DNA of 39,390 nucleotides, taken from Planctomycetota bacterium. Its GTDB lineage: Bacteria > Planctomycetota > MHYJ01 > WSZJ01. The translations under genes and the position numbers were made by a program. Positions 22,487-25,344 of the stretch are shown here, in pieces. The notes under the pieces were generated by a model that saw nothing but the letters and a program-made list of their open reading frames with translations, had not been told where the DNA came from and searched no databases. The stretch's first letter is position 1, and every line of letters begins with the position of its first letter. The DNA is taken from contig JACPRD010000095.1 of assembly GCA_016190145.1 (NCBI GenBank), positions 1 to 39,390 of the forward strand. The letters are read 5' to 3'.

Positions 22487-22640
22487 ATCGGTGTTTCATC
22501 CTCTTTCATCACCTTCCAGGGAGTATCCATCCTGTGTAAATCCCCCGAAATCCATCCCGGAATATCCATGGGGGATGTCAGGGGATGTTCAATGGATAGG
22601 AACGTCTCTGGAAAGTGATAAAAGAGGATGAAACACCGAT
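22487..22640. repeat. TTTCATC-type inverted repeat (element E)
   Basis: The arms at 22487-22523 and 22606-22640 match over about 35 bp with few differences. Each starts ATCGGTGTTTCATCCTCTTT in its own orientation. Further pairing inside (TATCCAT with ATGGATA, CATCCC with GGGATG) extends the hairpin inward. It fills most of the 222-bp gap between the hydrolase and the MFS gene, upstream of the selenoprotein operon. No ORF is supported in the gap. Confidence 0.88.
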
Positions 22641-22686: not shown

Positions 22687-23907
22687 ATGAAACGCCTCGC
22701 CGACTTCCTCGGCATCAACGCCCAGACCGGCGCCCTCCTCCTTGCCATTCTCTTCGTCGGCATCGGCGAGGAACTCTGGCTGCCCTTCGTTCCGAAGTAC
22801 ATCAAGGCCTCCGGCGGCACGATCTTCACGGTCGCCCTCTACGCCGCCGGCATCAACCTCCTCGAGGGCTTCTACTTCTTCGTCGGCGGCTCGCTCGCCG
22901 ACCGTATCGGCGTCCGCCGCTCCATGGCTCTGTTCGCCCTCGTTCCCCTCGCGGGCTACGCCATCTTTCTCTCCGGCGGCGGCCCGTGGGTCGCGGTCGC
23001 CGGCACGCTCGCGATCGCCGCCTGGGAACCGCTCGTGGTGCCGGCGACGTTCGACGTGGTGGGAAGCGCGCTCAAGGAATCGAAGCGGACGATGGCGTTC
23101 GCAGTGCAGTCGATCCAGAAGCGGCTGCCGAAGATCGTGGGGCCGGCGGTGGGCGGGGTGGTGCTGTTCACGGTCGGGGTGGTGAACGGGACGCGCGCGT
23201 GCCTCTGGGTTTCGCTGGTCTTCGTCGGGTTTTCGCTCGTGACGCAGCTCGTGCTCCTCAAGGACGTGCCGCGCAAAGGGCCGCCCGCCTCGCTGGGCGC
23301 GGCGCTCCGCGCGATGGACCCCTTCCTCAAGAGGCTTCTCGTTGCGGAGGTGCTGGTCAGGTGGTGCGACTGGCTGATCCGGGAGTTCGTGGTGCTCTAC
23401 GTGATCGAGGAACTGTGTTTTTCGTCGAAGGACTACGGATTCCTGCGGTCGTTCATGATGATCGTCTCGCTCCTCACGTACCTTCCGATCGGCTGGCTGG
23501 CCGACCGGACGTCGCCGCCGGCGTTCGTGCGGCTGACGTTCTTCTTTTTCGCGGCGTTCCCTCTCGCGCTGTCGTTCGCGCACACGATGCCGATGCTGGT
23601 GGCGGCGTTCGCGCTGTGGGGGCTGCGAGAGATCGGCGAGCCGGCGCGCAAGGCGATCATCACTTCGCGTTTCGCGCCGGAAGTCCGCGCGCGTGCCGTC
23701 GGGGCGTACTGGGGGATCCGGGCGTTCCTGATCTGGCCCGCGCCGATTCTCGGGGCGTGGATCTGGAAGGAGCACGGTCCCGAGGCGCTGATGCGTGTTG
23801 CGGCGGGGCTGGGGGCGGCGGCGTTCTTCGTTTTCCTGTTCGCGGAGAGGTGGATAGGCGGGAATAGGAGGAGCGAGGGCGGCGTTCGGGAGCTATCGAA
23901 ACCCTGA
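22687..23907 (+). CDS. Major facilitator superfamily transporter
   Basis: This 406-residue protein has about twelve hydrophobic segments. The MFS loop-2/3 signature is present as GGSLADRIGVRRSM (about residues 75-88), with a weaker second copy as GWLADRTSPPAFVR in the C-terminal half. Both are the typical G-x-x-x-D-R pattern. Substrate unknown. ATG 22687 gives the natural N terminus MKRLADFLGINAQTG; the frame extends upstream into repeat DNA and should not be used. The gene ends 13 nt before the PDZ-thioredoxin selenoprotein gene, so they are probably one operon. Confidence 0.88.
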   Translation: MKRLADFLGINAQTGALLLAILFVGIGEELWLPFVPKYIKASGGTIFTVALYAAGINLLEGFYFFVGGSLADRIGVRRSMALFALVPLAGYAIFLSGGGPWVAVAGTLAIAAWEPLVVPATFDVVGSALKESKRTMAFAVQSIQKRLPKIVGPAVGGVVLFTVGVVNGTRACLWVSLVFVGFSLVTQLVLLKDVPRKGPPASLGAALRAMDPFLKRLLVAEVLVRWCDWLIREFVVLYVIEELCFSSKDYGFLRSFMMIVSLLTYLPIGWLADRTSPPAFVRLTFFFFAAFPLALSFAHTMPMLVAAFALWGLREIGEPARKAIITSRFAPEVRARAVGAYWGIRAFLIWPAPILGAWIWKEHGPEALMRVAAGLGAAAFFVFLFAERWIGGNRRSEGGVRELSKP

Positions 23908-23920
23908 GGGAGGGCCAGCC

Positions 23921-24679
23921 ATGAAGCGTGCGTGGATCGGGGTCGTCTGTTTCGGACTGGCCGTGGTCGCTGAGGAGCCGCCCGCGGAGAAGCACGCCGT
24001 GCTCGGCGCGGTTTCGCGCAGTCCGTCAAAGGACGAAACGAAGGCGCTCGGGCTCGGGAGCGCGATCGCAGGACGCGTGAACGGGCAGATCGTGACGGAG
24101 GTGGAGAAGGGCGGGCCCGCTGAAGCTGCCGGCCTGAAAACGGGCGACGCGCTCCTCGCACTCGGCGACAACCTGGTCTACTCGCGGGACGACGTCGACG
24201 ATTTTCTGCGCGCGGCCGCGCCGGGGGCGGAGGTCCAGGTGCGCGCCATGCGAGCGGAGTCGAAGAAAGAAGAAACGCTGACGGTGACTCTGGGCGCGGA
24301 GAAAGGCGCCGCCTTCGCCGGCATCCGCTGGGACTTCGCCGGCCCCGGCCAGCTCGACGAGGCGCTCGCGGCCGCGAAGAAGGAAGGCCGGAAGGTGCTG
24401 GTGGGCATCAGCGGCGCGGAGACGTGATGACCCACGACCCGCTTCGAGAGCCGTGAGCTCTCGGAAAAGCTCGGCGACGCCTTCGTCGTGAAAGCCTCGG
24501 AGAAGTTCGTCCGCGTCATCATCCGCCGCCCCCACGCCTATGCTTTCGCGAACGAACATAAGGGCGCGCAGATCCCCGGCCTCGCCGTCCTCGACGCCGA
24601 AGGAAAGCTCGCCGGCACCGCGGACATCGACGGCGACTCCGCAGCCATCGCGAAGGAGCTCGAGGCGCTCGCCCGGTGA
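23921..24679 (+). CDS. PDZ-thioredoxin-like selenoprotein with two adjacent in-frame TGA codons
   Basis: A GAGGGAGG ribosome site precedes the ATG. The 252-residue frame runs through TGA at 24425 and 24428 (residues 169-170) to the TGA stop at 24677. A signal peptide (residues 1-17) is followed by a PDZ domain (about 45-130, with VEKGGPAEAAGLKTGDALLAL) and a thioredoxin-like domain (about 140-252). The TGAs fall at GAE-T-U-U-P-T-T-RF, where thioredoxins read A-D-W-C-x-P-C-K. The first thus replaces the nucleophilic Cys and the second its neighbour, while the resolving Cys is Thr. The fold continues after the TGAs with the cis-Pro strand AQIPGLAVLDAEGKL. No other stops or shifts occur. A hairpin follows. 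A redox or metal-binding role outside the cytoplasm is inferred. Truncation by real stops is the alternative, and is unlikely. Confidence 0.85.
24445..24463 (+). promoter_or_regulatory. SECIS-like hairpin for the TGA-TGA pair
   Basis: A perfect 7-bp stem CGAGAGC/GCTCTCG has a 5-nt loop CGTGA. The loop G lies 23 nt after the second TGA. Bacterial SECIS elements are short stem-loops inside the coding region, directly downstream of the UGA, with a G (often GU) at the loop top, so size, place and loop all fit. Confidence 0.7.
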
Positions 24680-25344
24680 AGCGAGCCGCGCTGCTGGCAG
24701 CCCTGCTCGCCGGGTGCGCTTCCGCCCCCCCGGCGGAGCAGCGCGTGTCGATCCGCGTAGACGGCATGGTCAAGACCCAGGGCCTGACCTGACTCGGCTG
24801 ACCCAACGCCGTCGAGGAAGCGCTGGAGGCGCTTCCCGGGATCTGCGAGTTGACCGTCGTCCTCGAGCACGACCGGTTCGACATCCGTTTCGATCCGGCG
24901 GTCGTCACGGTCGATCGGATGCTCGAAACCGTGCGCGCGAAGGGCTACGAGCCGGCGGTCGTTCCCGATGGCGGAGAGCCGGCCGCCGCGGTCCGGGAAA
25001 TCGACCCCGCGACCCTCTCCGATTCCCTGCGCGGCCGCTTCGAGGAGGCCCGCCGCGCCGGCCTCCCGCTCCTGATCGACGTCTCCGGCCCCGGCTGAGC
25101 GACGTGCGAACGCATGGATGCGGAGACGTATCCCGACGCGGCGGTGAAGGCGGAGCTGGCGAACTGGGTCTTCATACGCCTGGACCTCGCGACTGCTCGC
25201 GCGGACGCGAAGGCGCTCGGCGTGGCGGCTGTCCCGACGGCGGTGGCGGTGACGCCCGAGGGACAGGTTCTGGGCAGGCTGGAAGGATTTGTGAACGCCG
25301 AGGATTTCGCGCAGGCGCTGAGTCGCCTGCGCGCGGCCCGCTGA
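24676..25344 (+). CDS. Lipoprotein selenoprotein: HMA (MerP-like) domain plus thioredoxin domain, three in-frame TGA codons
   Basis: GTG 24676 overlaps the previous stop (GTGA). One frame of 222 residues crosses TGA at 24790, 24799 and 25096 and ends at TGA 25342. It has a lipoprotein signal with lipobox LLAGC (Cys14). An HMA domain (about 22-96) starts VSIRVDGM, carries U39-L-G-U42 followed by PNAVEEALEALPGI, and ends LETVRAKGYEPAVV. This matches MerP-like domains, where C-x-x-C-P binds the metal. The thioredoxin domain (about 115-222) has LPLLIDVSGPG-U141-A-T-C144-ERM and the cis-Pro strand AAVPTAVAV, as in DsbD-gamma-type domains. All three TGAs sit at Cys positions, so UxxU and UxxC are read. 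A periplasm-facing metal or thiol exchange role is inferred. Conventional gene callers would split it. Confidence 0.88.
24816..24836 (+). promoter_or_regulatory. SECIS-like hairpin for the HMA UxxU pair
   Basis: A perfect 8-bp stem GGAAGCGC/GCGCTTCC has the loop TGGAG. The loop starts 23 nt after the second TGA (24799-24801) and 32 nt after the first. Placement and loop G match the hairpin of the preceding gene. Confidence 0.7.
25102..25129 (+). promoter_or_regulatory. SECIS-like hairpin for the thioredoxin UxxC
   Basis: The inner stem CGCA/TGCG holds a TGGA loop (25115-25118), and an outer ACGT/ACGT stem surrounds an internal loop. The loop begins 17 nt after TGA 25096-25098. It is weaker than the other two, but its TGGA loop is shared with the HMA hairpin. 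Confidence 0.5.

Follow-up and report, generated by a model that had tools for sequence, protein, structure and literature searches.

Linked genes for two predicted envelope proteins with several selenocysteines in Planctomycetota, and their possible role in soft-metal handling

Where a protein uses selenocysteine (Sec, U), the common explanation is that it makes a single cysteine a better catalyst. NCBIfam holds models for several known Sec-containing forms: NF041115 (UxxU_metal_bind), NF045683 (MerT_CopZ_Se, a heavy-metal transport selenoprotein), and NF041199 (trx7_PDZ_seleno, a Trx7/PDZ selenoprotein with a CxxU motif). Sec is on record in MerP/MerT-like and UxxU metal-binding proteins, as well as in PDZ/Trx7 selenoproteins with CxxU (PMC13188914, PMC9312934, PMC2398784). 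We describe here two adjacent genes found in a window of 39,390 nucleotides from a Planctomycetota genome (the whole stretch of DNA analysed), which extend these known Sec-containing Mer/Trx proteins; their products miss the NF041115, NF041199, and MerP cut-offs.

The first product, UU-PDZ-Trx, likewise combines a PDZ domain with a Sec-containing Thioredoxin_7-like domain, but it matches NF041199 over the PDZ domain only (34.3 bits for a cut-off of 300) and carries UU where that family has CxxU. The second, HMA-Trx, shares with NF041115 the HMA fold and its UxxU site; whereas that model describes a single domain of 74 aa, the window protein is a predicted lipoprotein with a fused UxxC Trx domain and reaches 49.3 bits for a cut-off of 95. 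MerP/CopZ metallochaperones (TIGR02052, CopZ models) also have an extracytoplasmic HMA domain, and relatives of HMA-Trx adjoin MerT-type genes, but in HMA-Trx Sec replaces both Cys ligands, a Trx domain is fused, and all scores are below cut-off (23.0-23.7 bits for TIGR02052, cut-off 92.55). Among solved structures, those of the C-terminal (gamma) domain of DsbD are nearest to the Trx half, which differs in having a Sec at the first active-site position and in being fused to HMA, where DsbD has a membrane domain. As for NF045683, also a case of Sec in a mer-type system, it is related to the transporters standing beside HMA-Trx relatives, but these score 28-93 bits for a cut-off of 375, and none lies in the window. 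In the passages and tables of selenoprotein reviews that were searched, we came across neither the lipoprotein HMA(UxxU)-Trx architecture, nor the pairing and fusion of UU-Trx with HMA-Trx, nor a Trx site with conserved Sec-Sec; they may be described by Haft and Tolstoy 2025, a paper to which PMC13188914 refers.

The coordinates of the locus are listed in Table 1. Read directly, the stop codon of an MFS transporter gene and the initiation codon of the PDZ-Trx gene are separated by 13 nt, and the stop codon of the latter overlaps the GTG of the HMA-Trx gene as GTGA; both junctions, given in a preliminary description of this DNA, were borne out by reading and translation. The same description counted five Sec codons in 0.9 kb, and the five in-frame TGAs, all in the two selenoprotein genes, lie within 0.67 kb. 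It was also right that standard annotation hides these genes: with translation table 11, PDZ-Trx ends at 168 aa and HMA-Trx is broken into pieces. It proposed a single operon comprising an exporter and two multi-Sec genes; the gene layout supports one translationally coupled unit of two predicted exported multi-Sec proteins, but core membership of the MFS gene is not supported.

Table 1. Features of the locus (positions in the window).
Feature	Position	Strand	Remarks
Long palindrome 5' of MFS	22487..22640	.	Dispersed repeat, outside the system
MFS transporter gene	22687..23907	+	ATG 22687, stop 23905-23907; MFS_1 over cut-off
Selenoprotein 1 gene, secreted PDZ-Trx (UU-PDZ-Trx)	23921..24679	+	ATG 23921, stop 24677-24679
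Tandem UGA UGA (TGA TGA), Sec169-Sec170 of PDZ-Trx	24425..24430	+	
SECIS-type hairpin for UU	24445..24463	+	Best of 180 placements
Selenoprotein 2 gene, lipoprotein HMA-Trx (UxxU + UxxC)	24676..25344	+	GTG 24676, stop 25342-25344
UxxU motif of HMA	24790..24801	+	TGAs at 24790 (U39) and 24799 (U42)
SECIS-type hairpin for UxxU	24816..24836	+	Best of 180 placements
Sec141 of Trx UATC site in HMA-Trx	25096..25098	+	TGA 25096
SECIS-type hairpin for Sec141, weaker	25115..25134	+	Second-ranked of 180 placements

Comparison of homologous sequences makes it well supported that the five UGAs are selenocysteine codons, and places this reading far beyond chance, because the five UGAs and the gene overlap are kept in a sister species, the coding signal continues, and the UGA columns are kept across the phylum. 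In this sister species (the congener G003), whose proteins are 55-60% identical to those of the window, the same block keeps each of the five UGAs at the corresponding codon and has an ATGA overlap where the window has GTGA. The codon-position bias of substitutions and the GC3 run on through each UGA, and homologues throughout the phylum, of which we sampled 392 genomes, retain UGA at the same alignment columns. UU-Trx homologues (E < 1e-13) were found in 15 of these genomes and HMA-Trx homologues with 2-4 in-frame UGAs in 31. The UU site is Sec-Sec in 16 of 17 homologues and Cys-Sec in the remaining one (L121, CU). For UxxU, the first position is Sec in 30/30 homologues and the second in 29/30 (L106 has UxxC), so that 59 of the 60 positions hold Sec and CxxC never occurs among 30 divergent homologues, gathered with a Sec-built profile that may under-sample Cys forms. 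At the Trx active site of HMA-Trx (Sec141 column), 16 of these 30 have Sec and 14 have Cys.

SECIS-type hairpins were sought by comparing, across homologues, 180 placements of a short hairpin 3' of the last UGA. The one retained for UU has a 7-bp stem located 14 nt 3' of the last UGA, with 95% of cells paired and a GU invariant in the loop; the one for UxxU, 16 nt away, is 82% paired over 7 bp with two-sided changes at 4 pairs, and the loops of these two best-ranked hairpins carry a conserved G. For Sec141, pairing drops to 72%, with two-sided changes at 2-3 pairs. This comparative placement was informative; z-scores for the folding energy of individual hairpins, taken against codon shuffles, were uninformative. 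Judging from the spacing, both UGAs of each motif (UU; UxxU) appear to share one hairpin.

One has to consider that the UGAs could be true stops followed by decaying remnants of coding frames, since a tandem UGA-UGA resembles a double stop and the search for selB in the window genome, whose assembly is 85% complete, did not find the gene; the matches inspected there look like EF-Tu, IF2, LepA, TypA, and EF-G. SelB is, however, above cut-off in the four congeners of this genome (4/4), and selA (547 bits for SelA) and tRNA-Sec were found together on one contig of the window genome itself; moreover, in L121 and L106 a Cys takes the place of one Sec. With the identical UGA columns across the phylum, the comparative hairpin test, and the coding signal persisting beyond the UGAs, we rejected the stop-codon or pseudogene reading, whose probability we hold to be negligible.

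In UU-PDZ-Trx, a hydrophobic signal-like segment at the N terminus is followed by a PDZ domain (residues 49-123, over cut-off), the range to which the match of a PHROGs search was confined. The C-terminal domain matches Pfam Thioredoxin_7 below cut-off; aligned by hhalign with the Trx half of the HMA-Trx family, it gives a probability of 98.3%, U169 falling on the nucleophile U141. Homology to Trx, including the nucleophile position and the proline loop, assigns this domain to the Trx fold, with Thr replacing the usual resolving Cys in the profile alignment. The congener G003 has a second UU-PDZ-Trx copy 3' of HMA-Trx (L045 4365-5126), and six loci (L125, L126, L127, L129, L131, L132) encode UU-Trx proteins in which no PDZ was recognised by eye and whose C-terminal segments resemble degenerate HMA domains. 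The window genome appears rich in Trx-type selenoproteins: six further Trx-like candidates with an in-frame TGA in a UxxC motif (L033, L035, L036, L037, L038, L039; e.g., DWUKFC, PQUPAC) sit on its contigs C181, C164, C77, C29, C103, and C138.

HMA-Trx, for its part, has HMA and Thioredoxin_2 matches over cut-off and a lipobox (LAGC, residues 11-14), and its relatives have a lipobox-like Cys. Solved relatives of its HMA half are the HMA domains of copper ATPases, and its highest identity outside the genus is 46%, with the protein of G027. Structures modelled from single sequences reached mean pLDDT values of 57 and 36, too poor for interpretation. A plasmid search with HMA-Trx gave no match, and a scan of named genomes gave weak matches to the Trx half only, in Poribacteria and Rhodopirellula. 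In three genomes of one family, the HMA-Trx gene (L117, L134, L135) has a fourth in-frame UGA, which lies two codons inside the strand that follows the Trx proline loop (IPDTU). Extra HMA-like segments with an in-frame UGA (e.g., TUPQSC, TUPMU, GUGGAUPP) occur near HMA-Trx genes, including in MerT-type proteins (L110 6793-7035, L114 5648-5878, L105 6792-7040, L134 6794-7174, and L136 4933-5658 and 2300-2587).

UU-Trx and HMA-Trx genes are adjacent, in either order, in the window genome and G003 (family f1), in G203 (f75), and in G246 (f64), while in G162 (f16) a single ORF encodes a fused PDZ-Trx(UU)-HMA(UxxU)-Trx protein; HMA-Trx is present in 10 of the 15 UU genomes (hypergeometric p 5e-9, a value that ignores phylogeny and the shared need of Sec machinery). 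The conserved unit is thus the two selenoprotein genes, a linkage well supported by genome comparison since the linked or fused pairs fall in three separate places of the HMA-Trx tree, with both orders and one fusion. Of the gene set singled out in the preliminary description, the selenoprotein pair recurs beyond the genus, in both orders; outside the window genome, the MFS gene lies next to it in one congener only. The long hairpin said there to precede the genes is real (153 nt, 36-nt arms, 92% complementary, folding z = -8.3), yet it is not an operon feature: a second full copy lies on contig C216 of the same genome along with many half copies, and it is absent at the G003 locus. No Rfam match other than tRNA was found in the window. 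We consequently rejected this dispersed repeat as a riboswitch or operon regulator; it resembles a MITE or REP-type element.

Within 3.5 kb of HMA(UxxU)-Trx genes, a MerR/CsoR-type regulator was found at 13 of 30 loci, and a CopZ-N/MerT-type transporter, often with its own HMA domain, stands near 9 of 30; these mer-type contexts are spread across the whole HMA-Trx tree and include, in G027, an HMA-Trx gene inside a MerR-MerT-HMA-Trx operon. The MerR-type regulators fall short of the cut-off of the MerR equivalog model, and the metal they sense could be Cu, Zn, Cd, or Pb. None of the 17 UU loci has MerR, CsoR, or MerT nearby, and no metal gene adjoins the pair in the window or in G003, so that the metal link rests on the relatives of HMA-Trx, for which gene maps were made by simple ORF and GC3 picking with part of the genes listed. 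The window genome has an unlinked locus (L151 3067-6913, contig C186) where a MerR-type regulator is accompanied by a CopZ/MerT/HMA transporter and a small protein rich in Cys; a gene in convergent orientation to it looks, by eye, like that of a mercuric-reductase-type flavoprotein.

What the pair does has to be weighed against this background. We lean, with modest confidence drawn from domains and gene neighbourhoods, towards envelope selenoproteins that would handle a thiophilic metal via selenols, most likely Hg(II) or a similar soft metal; soft-metal capture by the UxxU HMA lipoprotein is favoured because its relatives stand near MerR/CsoR and MerT genes and because the genome has its own MerR and CopZ/MerT/HMA locus. 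The preliminary description had hesitated between envelope handling of a thiophilic metal or metalloid and a selenol relay, and the former agrees with these operons. In a relay free of metal, electrons would flow through UxxU, UATC, and UU to peroxides or to oxidised proteins in need of repair, and the HMA fold would be a scaffold only. This relay seems to us rather unlikely, although Trx domains occur in both proteins, at least six other Trx-like UxxC candidates exist in the window genome, and most known selenoproteins are redox enzymes (PMC13188914); no metal genes turned up around the UU loci that lie apart from HMA-Trx, which leaves room for a purely redox role, but the UxxU HMA adjoins MerR/CsoR and MerT genes in many lineages. 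The soft chemistry of vicinal selenols would also suit selenium, tellurium, or arsenic species instead of metal cations, and the gene that comes after the genome's MerT-type locus resembles, by eye, radical SAM/arsenic proteins; no arsenic or selenium-oxyanion gene was recognised among the genes listed by HMA-Trx or UU-Trx loci, however, and we give this substrate range very little credence.

A larger system, in which the MFS protein would export the metal or a metal complex fed to it by the two selenoproteins, is suggested by the 13-nt gap and by the same gene order in G003. This congener, where the gap reaches 93 nt, is nevertheless the only one among 23 genomes of the class searched to keep an MFS gene beside the pair; the other MFS homologues (G001, G235) stand apart from selenoprotein genes, and no MFS gene was recognised near the pair in G162, G203, and G246 among the genes listed on their short contigs. 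We thus find three-gene efflux improbable. With the pair and MFS together in two congeners only, MFS was rejected as a conserved core member, contrary to the preliminary description, which had included the exporter in the set, and it is probably a neighbour.

For the preferred reading, soft-metal handling by the pair, the following scheme may be proposed. Selenoprotein 2, anchored in the envelope as a lipoprotein, would capture the metal at the two-selenol UxxU site of its HMA domain, as MerP and CopZ do with CxxC, and the fused DsbD-gamma-like Trx domain (UATC) would re-reduce or unload this site. In selenoprotein 1, where the Trx active-site Sec is directly followed by a second one, the vicinal diselenol could act as the reductant of its partner or as a transfer site, and the PDZ domain may dock the protein on another envelope protein. 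In this scheme we infer the identity of the metal, the direction of transfer, the electron route, and any MFS role.

Sec is near-constant in UxxU but swaps freely with Cys at the Trx site of HMA-Trx, a contrast suggesting that selenium has been selected for its role as a metal ligand; it would open the idea of natural selenol metallochaperones to direct testing. The Sec-Sec pair conserved in the other Trx domain, whose adjacent UGAs are apparently decoded by one hairpin, would represent an unusual active-site chemistry and a demanding case of recoding, and both families, being cut short by normal gene calling, are easily overlooked. More tentatively, and with some doubt, the pair could form a selenium-only envelope metal trap and relay, with a two-selenol HMA site and a Trx whose vicinal Sec-Sec pair either closes into an intramolecular diselenide or offers two selenols to a metal; if true, this would be a selenium-dependent counterpart of MerP and DsbD, widespread in one phylum.
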